Assembly: GCF_900564155.1 (NCBI RefSeq)
Contig: NZ_LS999839.1
Coordinates: forward strand, 1,857,097-1,921,096
DNA: 64,000 nt
Direction: 5' to 3'
From: Pedobacter schmidteae
GTDB lineage: Bacteria > Bacteroidota > Bacteroidia > Sphingobacteriales > Sphingobacteriaceae
The translations under genes were made by a program, and so were the position numbers. Below are positions 19,964-26,192 of this stretch, piece after piece; positions within the stretch are counted from its first letter, which is position 1, and each line of letters starts with the position of its first letter. The notes under the pieces were generated by a model. It saw nothing but the letters and a program-made list of their open reading frames with translations. It was not told the origin of the DNA and ran no database searches.

Positions 19964-20422
19964 ATGAAACAGCAGGAAACAATTGATTATTTTTTAAAGG
20001 TAGTTTGGCAGAATGTGTCAAATGCTTACAACCAGATCGCGTCGGGTTTTGGAATTACACAGGCCATAGGTTATGTACTGATCAATATTGATAAGGAAGG
20101 GACCGCTGTTTCGCAGCTGGCTGGCCTGCTGGGGGTCAAGGCCACCAGTTTGTCAAGGATGCTAAACAATATGGAAGACCTGGGGTTAATATATAGGGAA
20201 ACTGCCGAGGGTGATAAACGCTCGGTGAAAGTTTACCTGACCGATCTGGGTTATGAAAAAAGACATATGGCCAAAGGCGTAGTAATTGCTTTTAACGAAT
20301 ACCTGGGCAAAAACCTGACTGCAACAGAAAAAAATAACCTGCTGGTTACCCTGCAAAAATTGAACAAACTTACATTGGCATATAAAATTCCAGTTGAACA
20401 TGATGAACAAAAAGATAAATAA
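19964..20422 (+). CDS. MarR-family transcriptional regulator
   Basis: A 152-residue winged-helix regulator: the DNA-binding part includes AVSQLAGLLGVKATSLSRML and the wing LIYRETAEGDKRSVKVYLTDLG. I use the ATG at 19964 rather than the TTG three bases before. It heads the fatty-acid degradation operon and overlaps the next gene by 23 bp, so it is very probably the local regulator, sensing fatty acids or acyl-CoA (the FadR role taken here by a MarR protein). That ligand is inferred from context only. Confidence 0.85.
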   Translation: MKQQETIDYFLKVVWQNVSNAYNQIASGFGITQAIGYVLINIDKEGTAVSQLAGLLGVKATSLSRMLNNMEDLGLIYRETAEGDKRSVKVYLTDLGYEKRHMAKGVVIAFNEYLGKNLTATEKNNLLVTLQKLNKLTLAYKIPVEHDEQKDK

Positions 20423-22775
20423 AGTAGTGGTGCTGGGCTCAGGTATTATGGGCTCGCGTATTGCCTGTCACTTTGCGAACATAGGAGTAGAAGTGCTTTT
20501 GCTGGATATCCCGGCCAAAGAAAGCAATGAGCGCGTTGATAAAAACACCATTGTAAATACAGCCTTGCAAAATGCGGTGAAGACCAATCCTTCTCCCGTG
20601 TATTCAAAAAAGGTGCTGAACAAAATTACTACCGGGAACTTTGAAGATGATATGCCAAAAATTGCCGGCTATGATTGGATTATTGAGGTGGTGGTAGAAA
20701 ATCTGGACATCAAGAAAAAAGTTTTTGAACAGGTAGAACAATTCCGCAAACCGGGTACCCTGGTTACTTCCAATACTTCAGGCATTCCTATCCATCTGAT
20801 GGCCGAAGGCCGTTCTGATGATTTTAAAGTAAATTTTTGCGGTACACACTTCTTCAATCCTCCACGTTATTTACGCCTGCTGGAAATTATTCCAACACCC
20901 TATACCAACCCACAGCTGGTTGACTTTTTGATGCATTATGGCGATAAGTTTTTGGGTAAAACAACTGTTTTATGTAAAGACACACCCGCATTTATTGCCA
21001 ATAGGGTAGGTGTATACTCCATTATGGCCCTATTGCACCTGGTGGAGAAAATGGACCTGACGGTTGAAGAGGTAGATAAATTTACCGGACCGGCTTTAGG
21101 TCGCCCTAAATCGGCTACCTTCCGTACTACCGATGTAGTGGGATTGGACACCATGATCAAGGTATCCAAAGGCTTGTACGACAATTGTCCGGATGATAAG
21201 GCACATGACCTGTTTAAGCTGCCTGCCTACGTCGAAAAAATGGAAGCTAATAAATGGCTGGGCGACAAGACTGGACAGGGTTTTTATAAAAAAACAAAAT
21301 CAGCCGATGGGAAAACTGAAATACTGGCACTAGACCTTAAAACATTGGAGTACCGGCAACAGGTAAAGGTGAAGTCGGCCACACTGGACCTTGCCAAACC
21401 TATCGAAAATGTAAAAGACCGGATGAAGGTATTTGCTGCCGGCAAGGATAAGGCTGGCGAACTGTTCAGGGCATCCTTTTTTGGCTTGTTTGAATATGTA
21501 TCAGACAGAATTCCCGAGATTTCTGACGAACTATATAGAATTGATGACGCTATGCGTGCTGGCTTTGGCTGGGATTTGGGACCATTTGAAGTCTGGGATG
21601 CTGTAGGTGTGGCCGATGCCATTGAGGGTATGAAAAAATACGGGCATGAAGCTGCAGCCTGGGTTCATGAAATGCTTGCCGCCGGCAATACTTCCTTTTA
21701 TAAAGTAGAAAACGGGGTTAAGCAGTATTATGATATTCCTTCCAAAACCTATAAGGCAGTCCCTGGTACCGAAGAATTTATTATCCTGGATAACCTGAGG
21801 GGCAATAAAGTAATCTGGAAAAACTCCGGCGCTTCGATCATCGATCTGGGAGATGGTATCCTAAATGTGGAGTTCCACTCTAAAATGAATACTATTGGTG
21901 GCGATACCCTGCAAGCTATTAACAAAGCCATTGACATGGCCGAAAAAGATTACAGAGGGGTAGTAATTGGTAATGACGGGGCCAACTTCTCGGCGGGGGC
22001 TAATGTAGGGATGATCTTTATGATGGCGGTTGAGCAGGAGTGGGAAGAATTGAACCTGGCCATCAGAATGTTCCAGAATACTTCCATGCGCATCCGATAT
22101 TCGTCTATCCCGGTAGTGGTGGCACCACATAATTTAACACTGGGTGGTGGCTGCGAGTTTAGCTTACACGCCGATCACGTGCAGCTCAATGCCGAAACTT
22201 ATATGGGACTGGTTGAATTTGGCGTAGGGGTAATTCCTGGTGGAGGTGGCACAAAGGAATTCGCCTTGCGGGCCTCCGACGAATACAAAGAAGACCAGAT
22301 TGTACAAAATGCATTAAAAGATAGGTTCCTGACCATCGGCATGGCAAAAGTGTCTACTTCAGCCGTTGAGGCCTTTGAACTGGGCTATTTGCAAAAAGAT
22401 AAATACTCCATTTCGATGAACCGGAGCAGGTTGATTGCCGATGCAAAGGCCAAAGCTATTGAACTGGCCGATGCCGGATACACCCAACCGGTAAGGCGTA
22501 AAGACATCAGGGTTTTAGGTAAACAGGGATTGGGCATTGTTTATGCTGGTGCCAACACCATGTATTCGGGTCACTATATTTCCGAACATGATAAAAAGAT
22601 TTCCGAAAAACTGGGTTGGGTAATGTGTGGTGGTGATCTTTCTTCTCCAACGGAAGTTACAGAGCAATATCTGCTGGATCTGGAACGCGAAGTGTTTTTA
22701 TCGCTTTGTGGTGAACGCAAAACTTTAGAGCGGATACAGAGCATTGTAACTAAGGGAAAACCGCTGAGGAATTAG
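20400..22775 (+). CDS. fadN: 3-hydroxyacyl-CoA dehydrogenase / enoyl-CoA hydratase (FadN type)
   Basis: A 791-residue bifunctional beta-oxidation enzyme. The N-terminal half is the NAD-binding 3-hydroxyacyl-CoA dehydrogenase (VVVLGSGIMGSRIACHFA, residues about 10-25; THFFNPPRYLRLLEIIP), the C-terminal half a crotonase fold (FSAGANVGMIF and TLGGGCEFSLHAD; GVIPGGGGTKEF). This order is that of FadN, the reverse of E. coli FadB. ATG at 20400 or 20403; the upstream TTG is less likely. It overlaps marR and forms one operon with thiolase and acyl-CoA dehydrogenase. Confidence 0.9.
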   Translation: MMNKKINKVVVLGSGIMGSRIACHFANIGVEVLLLDIPAKESNERVDKNTIVNTALQNAVKTNPSPVYSKKVLNKITTGNFEDDMPKIAGYDWIIEVVVENLDIKKKVFEQVEQFRKPGTLVTSNTSGIPIHLMAEGRSDDFKVNFCGTHFFNPPRYLRLLEIIPTPYTNPQLVDFLMHYGDKFLGKTTVLCKDTPAFIANRVGVYSIMALLHLVEKMDLTVEEVDKFTGPALGRPKSATFRTTDVVGLDTMIKVSKGLYDNCPDDKAHDLFKLPAYVEKMEANKWLGDKTGQGFYKKTKSADGKTEILALDLKTLEYRQQVKVKSATLDLAKPIENVKDRMKVFAAGKDKAGELFRASFFGLFEYVSDRIPEISDELYRIDDAMRAGFGWDLGPFEVWDAVGVADAIEGMKKYGHEAAAWVHEMLAAGNTSFYKVENGVKQYYDIPSKTYKAVPGTEEFIILDNLRGNKVIWKNSGASIIDLGDGILNVEFHSKMNTIGGDTLQAINKAIDMAEKDYRGVVIGNDGANFSAGANVGMIFMMAVEQEWEELNLAIRMFQNTSMRIRYSSIPVVVAPHNLTLGGGCEFSLHADHVQLNAETYMGLVEFGVGVIPGGGGTKEFALRASDEYKEDQIVQNALKDRFLTIGMAKVSTSAVEAFELGYLQKDKYSISMNRSRLIADAKAKAIELADAGYTQPVRRKDIRVLGKQGLGIVYAGANTMYSGHYISEHDKKISEKLGWVMCGGDLSSPTEVTEQYLLDLEREVFLSLCGERKTLERIQSIVTKGKPLRN

Positions 22776-22780
22776 AAGTA

Positions 22781-22806
22781 GTTAGTATTTAGAAGTTAGT
22801 ATTTAG
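22781..22806 (+). repeat. Left inverted-repeat arm of the four-helix-bundle cassette
   Basis: Two copies of GTTAGTATTTAG (22781-22792 and 22795-22806) begin 5 bp after the fadN stop codon. The same unit is present in reverse orientation at 23177-23209, so the two arms can pair across the small gene. Confidence 0.85.
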
Positions 22807-22808
22807 AA

Positions 22809-23180
22809 ATGCATAAATATAAAGAATTGAAAGTTTGGCAGAAATCGATAGAACTGGTTACGGACGTTTATTGCGCTAAGGCTAAATTTCCTGATAAGGA
22901 AAGGTTTGGATTGATTAGTCAAATCAACAGAGCTTCTGTTTCCATCCCATCTAACATTGCAAAGGGGGCAGGACGAAATTCAGCTAAAGAATTCTTGCAT
23001 TTTTTATCAATAGCACATGCTTCTTCATACGAGACCGAAACACAATTAATTATCTCTAGGAATTTAAATTATTTATCAATAAACGAGTTAGATGTGTTAA
23101 CAGAAAAAATTAATGAATGGCAAAAGATGAGTTATGCTTTTCAGTCAAAACTGAAATCCTCCTTCACTGGTAATGTCTAA
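22809..23180 (+). CDS. Four-helix-bundle protein, 23S rRNA intervening-sequence family
   Basis: A 123-residue helical protein of the TIGR02436/S23 type: YKELKVWQKSIELVTDVY at the N-terminus, FGLISQINRASVSIPSNIAKG in the middle, LNYLSINELDVLTEKINEW near the end. Members were first found inside 23S rRNA intervening sequences, but many are scattered in genomes; the molecular role is unsettled. The gene interrupts the spacing between fadN and the thiolase gene and is bounded by inverted repeats, which suggests a mobile or formerly mobile cassette. Its AT-rich codon use differs from its neighbours. Confidence 0.87.
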   Translation: MHKYKELKVWQKSIELVTDVYCAKAKFPDKERFGLISQINRASVSIPSNIAKGAGRNSAKEFLHFLSIAHASSYETETQLIISRNLNYLSINELDVLTEKINEWQKMSYAFQSKLKSSFTGNV

Positions 23181-23209
23181 ATACTAATATCTAACTACTA
23201 AATACTAAC
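23177..23209 (-). repeat. Right inverted-repeat arm of the four-helix-bundle cassette
   Basis: CTAAATACTAAT at 23177-23188 and CTAAATACTAAC at 23198-23209 are the reverse complement (first copy with one mismatch) of the left-arm unit. The arm ends 1 bp before the thiolase ATG, so it also replaces the thiolase leader. Confidence 0.85.
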
Positions 23210-23210
23210 A

Positions 23211-24386
23211 ATGGAAGCATATATTATAGCAGGATATCGTACCGCAGTGGGCAAGGCCCCTCGTGGTGTATTTCGTTTTACAAGGGCTGATGATTTGGCT
23301 GCAGATGTGATCCGCGCACTGGTGGCTTCGGTACCCAACCTGGACAAAGAACAAATTGATGATGTCATAGTTGGAAATGCAACGCCTGAGGCGGAGCAGG
23401 GGCTCAACATTGGCAGGATGATTTCTTTAATGGGACTGGATACCGACAAAGTACCCGGTGTTACAGTCAACCGTTACTGTGCCTCGGGCCTGGAAACGAT
23501 TGCCACTGCTGTGGCTAAAATAAAAAGTGGTATGGCCGATTGTATTATTGCCGGTGGAGTGGAAGTGATGTCGGGAATGCCTTTTGGCGGATGGAAGATT
23601 GTCCCCAATGCTGATGTAGCCAGGAAAAATCCGGATTGGTACTGGGGTATGGGACTAACCGCTGAAGCCGTTGCCAAAGAATACAATGTAAGCCGCGAAG
23701 ATCAGGATATATTTGCTTATCAATCGCACCAGAAAGCTGTTGAGGCGATAAAAAATGGTCATTTAAAAGATGGAATATTGCCCATCACGGTAAATGAAAA
23801 TTACCTGGATGCGGATATGAAAAAGAAAACCCGCAGTTATGTGGTGGATACAGATGAAGGGCCACGTGCCGATACTTCGGTAGAAAAACTGGCCAAACTA
23901 AAACCTGTATTTGCTGCTGATGGTTGCGTTACTGCAGGTAACTCTTCTCAAACTTCAGACGGTGCCGCCTTTGTATTGGTGGTGTCGGAAAAGAAAATGA
24001 AGGAGCTGGGAGTTGAGCCTATTGCCCGATTGGTAAGCTACGGAATTGCTGGCGTGCCACCCCGCATCATGGGTATTGGTCCTATTTACGCCATTCCTAA
24101 AGCTTTAAAACAAGCGGGGATGACATTGGACCAGCTTAATCTGATTGAACTGAATGAGGCCTTTGCCTCTCAGTCGCTGGCCATTGTAAGGGAGCTGCAC
24201 CTCAATACAGATATTTTAAATGTAAATGGCGGAGCAATTGCTCTGGGGCATCCTTTGGGATGTACAGGTGCTAAATTGTCCGTTCAATTGTTTAGTGAAT
24301 TAAAAAGAAGAAATCAGAAATACGGAATGGTAACCATGTGCGTAGGTACAGGTCAAGGTGCTGCCGGAATTTTTGAAATGCTTTAA
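23211..24386 (+). CDS. fadA: Acetyl-CoA C-acyltransferase (3-ketoacyl-CoA thiolase)
   Basis: A 391-residue thiolase. The nucleophilic cysteine is in [13 protein letters not shown] (about residue 90), [13 protein letters not shown] follows, and the C-terminal [11 protein letters not shown] and [10 protein letters not shown] blocks carry the acid/base residues. It cleaves 3-ketoacyl-CoA to acetyl-CoA and a shortened acyl-CoA, the last step of the cycle. The ATG directly follows the inverted-repeat arm; 15 bp separate it from the acyl-CoA dehydrogenase gene. Confidence 0.92.
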
Positions 24387-24401: not shown

Positions 24402-26192
24402 ATGGAAGCTACAGACAAAAAAACAATTAAAGGTGGCGAGTTTTTGATAACAGAAACCACTTACCAGGATGTATTCATTCCTGAAGAATTTGATGAAGAG
24501 CAAAAGATGATTGCACAAACCTGCCGGGATTTTCTGGCAGCAGAGGTATATCCTAACCTTGATCGTATTGATACACAGGAAGAGGGACTGATGCCTTCGC
24601 TAATGGACAAAGCCGGTGAACTGGGTATTCTGGGGGTTTCTATTCCTGAAGCCTATGGCGGATTTGGAAAAAATTTCAATACCTCGATGTTGGTGGCCGA
24701 TGTGATCGGTGCAGGGCACTCTTTTGCCGTGGCCTTATCGGCCCATACCGGAATTGGTACTTTGCCTATTCTGTACTATGGAACAGAAGCGCAAAAAAAT
24801 AAATACATTCCTAAGCTGGGAACCGGCGAGTGGAAAGCAGCCTATTGCCTAACAGAGCCCAATTCGGGCTCGGATGCCAACTCCGGAAAAACAAAAGCGA
24901 AACTATCGGACGATGGCAAGCATTACATCATCAACGGCCAGAAAATGTGGATCACCAATGGTGGCTTTGCCGATATCTTCATTGTGTTTGCAAAAATTGA
25001 TGATGATGCCAACTTAACGGCCTTTATTGTCGAACGCGCCTTTGGTGGAATTACCATGAATCCTGAAGAGCATAAAATGGGGATCAAAGGATCGTCAACC
25101 CGTCAGGTGTTCTTTAACGATTGCCCGGTGCCGGTCGAGAATATGCTCTCTGATCGTCAGAATGGGTTTAAAATTGCGGTTAACATTTTAAATATAGGGC
25201 GTATTAAATTGGCCGCGGCTGCCATTGGCGCTTCCAAAGCGGTAATTGATACGGCTGTAAATTATTCGAATGAAAGGATCCAGTTCGATCGCCAGATCTC
25301 CAAATACGGAGCCATTCGCTATAAACTGGCCGAAATGGCGACTAAAGTTTATGCGGTAGAATCGGCCAATTACAGGGCAGGTCAGAATATTGACGATGCC
25401 TTTGATGCCCTGGTTGCTGCTGGCATGGATGAAGGAAAGGCCAAGCTGAAATCAACAGAACAGTTTGCTGTTGAATGCGCCATCCTGAAGGTATGGGGCT
25501 CGGAAGCTTTGGATTATGTGGTGGATGAAGGTGTGCAGATATACGGAGGTATGGGTTTTTCGGCAGATGCGCCGATGGATAGAGCGTACCGTGATGCCCG
25601 GATCAACCGGATTTTTGAAGGTACCAATGAGATCAATCGATTGTTGACGGTGGATATGATGCTGAAAAGGGCCATGAAGGGAGAACTGGACCTGATGACC
25701 CCGGCTACTGCTGTGGCTGCCGAACTGATGTCGATCCCGGATTTCGGGGAAGAAGACGATACCCTGTTTGCTGCCGAGAAAAAGATTATTCAGAACCTGA
25801 AAAAAGCAACATTGATGGTTGCCGGTGCTGCGGTACAAAAACTGATGATGAGCCTGTCTAAAGAACAGGAAATACTGATGAACATTGCCGATATGGCCAG
25901 TTATGTGTATATCGCCGAATCGGCCATGTTGAGGACCGAAAAACTGGTGAGTATGCGTGGAGCTGAGGCTTGCGAAGGACAGCTGAACATGATGCGTATT
26001 TATTTTGTGGAAGCCGTAGATGCGGTTAACAAAGCAGGTAAAGAAGCTTTGTGGGCATTTGCCGAAGGCGATGAGCAGCGCATGATGATGGTGGGATTGA
26101 AAAGGTTTACCAAAATGGAGGCTTTTAATGTAAAAGAAGCGAGGCAAAAGGTGGCACAACAATTGATTGCTGCTAATAAATATTGTTATTAA
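24402..26192 (+). CDS. Acyl-CoA dehydrogenase
   Basis: A 596-residue flavoprotein, first step of beta-oxidation. The family signatures AYCLTEPNSGSDANS and QIYGGMGFSADAP are present, and the likely catalytic glutamate is in RIFEGTNEINR. About 180 extra C-terminal residues follow the standard domain, as in the long FadE of Bacillus and other Bacteroidota members. Last gene of the marR-fadN-fadA operon; a terminator follows 76 bp downstream. Confidence 0.9.
   Translation: MEATDKKTIKGGEFLITETTYQDVFIPEEFDEEQKMIAQTCRDFLAAEVYPNLDRIDTQEEGLMPSLMDKAGELGILGVSIPEAYGGFGKNFNTSMLVADVIGAGHSFAVALSAHTGIGTLPILYYGTEAQKNKYIPKLGTGEWKAAYCLTEPNSGSDANSGKTKAKLSDDGKHYIINGQKMWITNGGFADIFIVFAKIDDDANLTAFIVERAFGGITMNPEEHKMGIKGSSTRQVFFNDCPVPVENMLSDRQNGFKIAVNILNIGRIKLAAAAIGASKAVIDTAVNYSNERIQFDRQISKYGAIRYKLAEMATKVYAVESANYRAGQNIDDAFDALVAAGMDEGKAKLKSTEQFAVECAILKVWGSEALDYVVDEGVQIYGGMGFSADAPMDRAYRDARINRIFEGTNEINRLLTVDMMLKRAMKGELDLMTPATAVAAELMSIPDFGEEDDTLFAAEKKIIQNLKKATLMVAGAAVQKLMMSLSKEQEILMNIADMASYVYIAESAMLRTEKLVSMRGAEACEGQLNMMRIYFVEAVDAVNKAGKEALWAFAEGDEQRMMMVGLKRFTKMEAFNVKEARQKVAQQLIAANKYCY

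Follow-up and report, generated by a model that had tools for sequence, protein, structure and literature searches.

A heptamer-armed IVP cassette between fadN and fadA of Pedobacter schmidteae: probably an IVS-type mobile element of mRNA with gene-less derivatives

A 435 nt cassette, in which the gene of a 23S rRNA-intervening sequence protein (IVP) is bounded by inverted arrays of a 7-nt repeat, lies between the β-oxidation genes fadN and fadA of Pedobacter schmidteae. It was found in a window of 64,000 nucleotides (contig NZ_LS999839.1, positions 1,857,097 to 1,921,096), the whole stretch of DNA that was analysed. The cassette is probably a mobile element of the rRNA intervening sequence (IVS) type that lives in mRNA and has given rise to derivatives without the gene. 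It is present here and missing from the nearest relatives, the repeat unit of its arms is locked to the IVP subfamily, arrays are nearly absent from genomes without an IVP, and gene-less copies occupy other intercistronic gaps of the same genome. In addition, there are relatives with copies in adjacent gaps of one operon and there is a counterpart of the same anatomy within a 23S rRNA gene.

The insert (22776-23210) contains one ORF and, as had been predicted, fits exactly between the fadN stop codon (TAG, 22773-22775) and the fadA start codon (Table 1). The right arm includes the IVP stop codon in its first unit and ends 1 nt 5′ of the fadA ATG. Two opposite copies of a 12-mer had been predicted for each arm; the left arm does have two exact copies of GTTAGTATTTAG, at 22781 and 22795, but in the right arm only one reverse copy is exact (23198-23209), the others having one mismatch (23177-23188) and two mismatches (23191-23202). 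The real unit of the repeat is a 7-nt tandem. Over 34 nt the arms are 85% complementary to each other, and they pair in both the MFE and the centroid RNA folds, forming a stem of about 27 bp with three interruptions that encloses the gene, which agrees with the proposal that the transcript could fold with the gene in the loop. The fold of the whole cassette is only modestly stable when compared with shuffled sequences (z -1.6).

Table 1. Features of the fadN-fadA junction and its surroundings (window coordinates)
Feature	Position	Strand	Remarks
fadN (3-hydroxyacyl-CoA dehydrogenase / enoyl-CoA hydratase)	20394..22775	+	Left neighbour; TAG adjoins the array
Left arm	22777..22808	+	Tandem 7-nt units AGTAGTT, AGTATTT, AGAAGTT, AGTATTT, up to the IVP start codon
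IVP gene (23S rRNA-intervening sequence protein, four-helix bundle)	22809..23180	+	123 aa; PF05635, TIGR02436
Right arm	23173..23209	+	Inverted 7-nt units TGTCTAA, ATACTAA, TATCTAA, CTACTAA, ATACTAAC
fadA (acetyl-CoA acyltransferase)	23211..24386	+	Right neighbour
acdA (presumably acyl-CoA dehydrogenase)	24402..26192	+	Gap before this gene (fadA-acdA) is the second place where IVPs recur in relatives

The predicted four-helix-bundle gene was confirmed by matches to PF05635 (3.7e-38, 130.4 bits; curated cut-off 33.8) and TIGR02436 (5.2e-34, 116.7 bits; curated cut-off 24), and by an AlphaFold2 model with four helices at pLDDT 93. In Foldseek comparisons the model is closest to the solved IVPs 2gsc (TM 0.89, the bundle fold of XCC0516) and 2rld (0.76), then to the diversity-generating retroelement (DGR) protein Avd (4dwl, 0.78; 8ub7, 0.74). 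Identities to relatives by codon position (about 85/94/58%) indicate that the gene is under purifying selection. Avd shares the fold and has weak sequence similarity, but the score against its model NF033474 (E 3e-4, 20.9 bits) is below the 80-bit cut-off, and there is no reverse transcriptase beside the window IVP gene, where the neighbours are fadN and fadA. By analogy with Avd, the IVP might have been the partner of a reverse transcriptase encoded elsewhere in the genome; this was rejected, the presence of such an enzyme being independent of the presence of an IVP (43 of 90 genomes with IVPs, 29 of 55 without). One relative (G011) has IVPs and arrays, although no reverse transcriptase was found in its genome. 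Likewise, a phage origin of the cassette was rejected, with zero matches among 50,697 phage records.

A profile search of the genome (6.2 Mb, one contig) found a single PF05635 gene. The proposed search for further copies of the repeat was productive: there are 17 exact occurrences of GTTAGTATTTAG, against 0 for a reversed-pattern control, and outside the cassette these mark about ten sites, most of which are inverted pairs whose loops are short and unrelated. Thus about ten gene-less elements carry the ends of one resident IVP-bearing copy, as is seen with MITE- and REP-like elements. From the protein sequences, we take the neighbours of these elements to be hemB, ilvN/H, atpC-atpD, ispD-queA, hydroxybutyryl-CoA dehydrogenase-ruvB, iscU-iscA, rpoB-rpoC and rplK-nusG. 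Three of the elements (E1, E2, E12) are in gaps between divergent genes. In the hydroxybutyryl-CoA dehydrogenase-ruvB gap (L039:961-1292) several arrays of the cassette unit are stacked, as if inserted into one another, and the 23S-5S rRNA spacers of this genome (L042:930-1087, L045) have an array of the unit TTAGTAT, as in the cassette.

IVP genes were found in 90 of 145 congeneric genomes, with up to 18 in each. Among 111 IVP loci, self-similarity was best at a lag of 7, 14 or 21 in 81 flanks on the upstream side and 73 on the downstream side. A self-similarity score of at least 8 at these lags was reached by 196 of 308 IVP flanks and by 3 of 73 control flanks (p 1e-22; the controls were flanks of other window genes, and neighbours within IVP loci are probably contaminated by other arrays). 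Chance repeats are ruled out by this periodicity control together with the genome counts and their reversed-pattern control. There are about eleven IVP subfamilies in the genus, each with a visibly different repeat unit; the unit is 8 nt long in some IVP families and 9 nt in one. Cassettes with 8-nt or 9-nt units are present at L176, L172, L150, L163 and L340. The arms have a common polarity, the G-rich strand pointing inward in 36 of the 41 IVP clusters that could be scored.

Arms were compared in a set of 155 IVP cassettes by pairing the 5′ arm of one cassette with the 3′ arm of another. The pairing score was 14.6 for a cassette's own partner and 14.4 for the same subfamily in another genome (n=512), against 7.9 for a different subfamily in the same genome (n=118) and 7.5 for shuffled arms (AUC 0.95). 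Arms of one subfamily therefore pair across genomes as well as own partners do, and the arm goes with the protein rather than with the genome. The alternative that arms are set by the host genome was rejected, since arms from one genome and different subfamilies pair at background only. Continued pairing across genomes would not be expected of short non-coding arms free of constraint. The arms adjoin the gene, however, so co-inheritance alone could yield part of this lock between arm and protein.

The number of arrays in a genome also follows the IVP. The 5 genomes that have this IVP subfamily contain a median of 12 copies of GTTAGTATTTAG, as against 1 in the 85 with other IVPs and 0 in the 55 that are IVP-free; for TGAGATDTGAGA the corresponding medians were 54.5, 20 and 1. 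Most of the 90 IVP-bearing genomes have many arrays, and only 1 of the 55 IVP-free genomes has more than five copies of TGAGATDTGAGA, arrays otherwise being at chance level there. Some genomes that lack the subfamily of the window IVP have many arrays of its unit (G050, 15; G027, 14; G065, 13), and these arrays are read as relics. A flavobacterial repeat unit replicates the association (p 0.0009), with the reversed control also high in two genomes. In a tree built from fadN of 48 genomes, the P. schmidteae clade comprises 25 IVP-free and 3 IVP-bearing genomes; as P. schmidteae stands amid IVP-free relatives, the simplest account is that its lineage acquired the IVP gene and the arrays at the same time. 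The tree shows only about 4 changes in IVP presence, so few independent events lie behind the association, and the 3 supported phylogenetically independent pairs are too few for significance. The trees are based on short proteins or on one gene.

The comparison with operons without the cassette, which had been suggested as a means of defining the insertion site, shows an empty site. In the relative G128, whose fadN has 84% DNA identity to that of P. schmidteae, the fadN-fadA gap consists of 23 nt only, and the site is likewise empty of the IVP in G038, G086 and G072. The flanks of the cassette are G128-like up to the junction, the first 60 nt of fadA being 100% identical. When nine gene-less elements were compared with G128, three (E3, E4, E10) were simply absent, whereas at several others G128 carries a different short hairpin; at these nine sites no constant target-site duplication was seen and no fixed boundary could be defined.

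Such replacement is pronounced in rpoB-rpoC and atpC-atpD, where species differ in the unit type of their arrays or have hairpins that are unrelated, the whole hairpin differing rather than there being a simple insertion. All seven rpoB-rpoC spacers that were folded, each from a different species, form a hairpin (z -3.1 to -7.8). Across this spacer (L041:1048-1154) and the orthologous gaps in 8 relatives the sequence is swapped wholesale, sometimes for arrays of different IVP types. In the rplK-nusG spacer (L050 and orthologues) a conserved hairpin, AGGACTGCAA...TTGCAGTCCT, is common to G007, G011 and G057; P. schmidteae has a heptamer array, and G128, G072 and G016 have almost nothing. Intercistronic hairpins are thus replaced between species at fixed places, so that there is sequence turnover at these positions and arrays are one kind of filler.

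The closest known system is the IVS of 23S rRNA, as in Coxiella burnetii (helix 45) and Leptospira, with which the cassette shares the protein family, a gene inside terminal inverted repeats that form a stem, and patchy presence. In Coxiella, tandem heptamers (GACAGAT) lie just 5′ of the ATG of S23p, and the IVS is cut out by RNase III (PMC4990558). The window cassette likewise has stem-closing terminal inverted repeats, heptamers before the start codon and a sporadic presence, but it lies between protein-coding genes and its arms occur genome-wide without the gene; because it is between fadN and fadA and not inside a 23S rRNA gene, it is called IVS-like here rather than a 23S IVS. An IVP inside a 23S rRNA gene was found on megaplasmid AZO_p2 of Azospirillum lipoferum 4B (L339:1100-1640; the cmscan match spans the insert), near helix 45 by sequence context. 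This insert has inverted heptamer arms like those of the window cassette and a very stable stem (z -10). The proposal of a mobile, IVS-like unit outside rRNA is therefore upheld by the shared protein family, the arm anatomy of 23S IVSs, empty sites, multiple copies per genome and gene-less arms. The fold and the biology of the Coxiella IVS make plausible the alternative offered with it, namely that RNA processing at the cassette splits fadN mRNA from fadA mRNA.

Other heptamer arrays are similar. Those of cyanobacteria (GGGGA(C/T)T/STRR) are 7-nt, G-rich intergenic tandems that share the anatomy of the window arms, although the units differ, and IVPs on cyanobacterial plasmids are flanked by arrays of GGGGAGT, GGGAACA, GGTGTAG and similar units. 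On three such plasmids (L329, L330, L337) tandem-repeat-armed IVPs are inside CRISPR-cas operons (cas6-IVP-cas4; cas10-IVP-cmr3); IVPs in cas operons may explain the 23S rRNA IVP domains reported near CRISPR loci. According to the accessible text of the respective papers, Xanthomonas has 70 convergent GGGAATC pairs, the G-rich unit being often in convergent inverted pairs (PMC4692102), TAACTGA arrays occur in Beggiatoaceae, cyanobacteria and Bacteroidetes with no transfer mechanism evident (PMC4679880), and GGGACCG forms 7-nt intergenic arrays in Geobacter (PMC2700814); that text makes no connection to an IVP gene in any of the three. The arrays of P. schmidteae also resemble REP/RAYT and MITE-type elements, being dispersed, gene-less inverted repeats that match the flanks of a rare resident gene, but the IVP is no transposase, the arms are tandem heptamers with unrelated loops, and no target-site duplication is defined.

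In the mobile-element reading, the inverted arrays would close into a long stem in the transcript, with the IVP gene in the loop. The IVP, a pentamer by family and related to Avd, may recognise its own repeats, in RNA or in DNA form, and promote their spread in trans, in which case the gene-less arrays would be non-autonomous derivatives. RNase III would cut the stem from the mRNA, so that the insert could be tolerated between cistrons, as IVSs are in rRNA. Nothing in the IVP fold points to a nuclease, and a genome-encoded reverse transcriptase would not be required for the strand chemistry.

The recurrence of the fad junction across families is not what would be expected of random transposition, and speaks against a mobile element. 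So do the whole-hairpin differences between species at rpoB-rpoC and atpC-atpD, and the failure to define a target-site duplication or a boundary. The orders fadN-IVP-fadA or fadA-IVP-acdA are found in Sphingobacteriaceae, Flavobacteriaceae, Cytophagales, Saprospiraceae and other groups of Bacteroidota with unrelated arms, which leaves room for an old operon-linked role. It had been reasoned that absence of the repeat elsewhere, with the same spacing in distant genera, would argue against the prediction; the repeat is abundant, and while the position recurs in distant families, the arms and the exact spacing do not. The IVP could instead be an old, mainly vertically inherited member of the fad operon (or of arg, metF and other operons) that binds its own stem and the other arrays as a regulon, setting mRNA segmentation and stability. 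Both neighbours are on the IVP strand in 68 of 74 named loci (the 80 named loci are the best matches to the window IVP, not a random sample), most gene-less elements are between co-directional housekeeping genes where related species have different hairpins, and the rpoB-rpoC spacer folds as a hairpin in all 7 species tested. Such a regulator is nevertheless unlikely, given that 55 of the 145 congeneric genomes lack an IVP and others have up to 18 copies, that three gene-less elements are between divergent genes, and that the occupied sites differ among close relatives. In addition, the IVP tree, which is weakly resolved, implies at least 28 changes of location. The fadN-fadA and fadA-acdA gaps interchange within well-supported IVP clades, and in two relatives the cassettes in the two gaps of a single fad operon are much alike (aligned DNA 87% identical in G019 and 78% in G060), which suggests local movement.

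Tandem repeats usually arise by slippage, and repeat numbers do vary here; in Coxiella the heptamer number varies by strain and S23p may not be made (PMC4990558). Replication slippage, together with template switching at hairpins, might accordingly create the arrays and drive their turnover, with the IVP gene hitch-hiking. This is quite improbable, as such passive repeats would not account for chance-level arrays in 54 of the 55 IVP-free genomes, for unit identity following the IVP subfamily even inside one genome, for purifying selection on the IVP, or for the common arm polarity. Less probable still is that the cassette is immobile and came with a fad operon acquired from another species by homologous recombination. 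G011, G144 and G057 have the same junction and the same arms, and fourfold-site identity is higher for the IVP (47-52%) than for fadN/fadA (29-39%), which, with small counts, hints that the cassettes share a more recent history. The flanks, however, are more similar to G128 right up to the junction, and the same event would be needed again at about ten other array sites; the flank and fourfold-site comparisons argue only weakly for a recent transfer of the cassette from these three genomes.

Extending the mobile-element reading beyond this genus, we tentatively suggest that bacterial heptamer arrays generally, including rRNA IVSs, the arrays of cyanobacteria and Xanthomonas, and the intercistronic hairpins of Bacteroidota, have IVP (S23p) proteins as their trans-acting factors, each protein recognising its own 7-nt unit and writing or moving inverted arrays into rRNA or mRNA hairpins. 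In an open-access literature search, no link between IVPs and heptamer arrays was found. IVPs are a widespread family with solved structures for which we know of no function, and the repeated reports of heptamer arrays (cyanobacteria, Xanthomonas, Beggiatoaceae, Geobacter) offer no mechanism for them. The subfamily lock, together with the scarcity of arrays where an IVP is missing, would provide a common, directly testable explanation for both of these orphans. If the general suggestion is true, there is a class of mobile element that has no transposase and does not depend on a reverse transcriptase. The rRNA intervening sequence would be extended to mRNA, with consequences for the cutting and tuning of bacterial operons, and for the hairpins in atp, rpoBC, rplK-nusG and CRISPR-cas operons.
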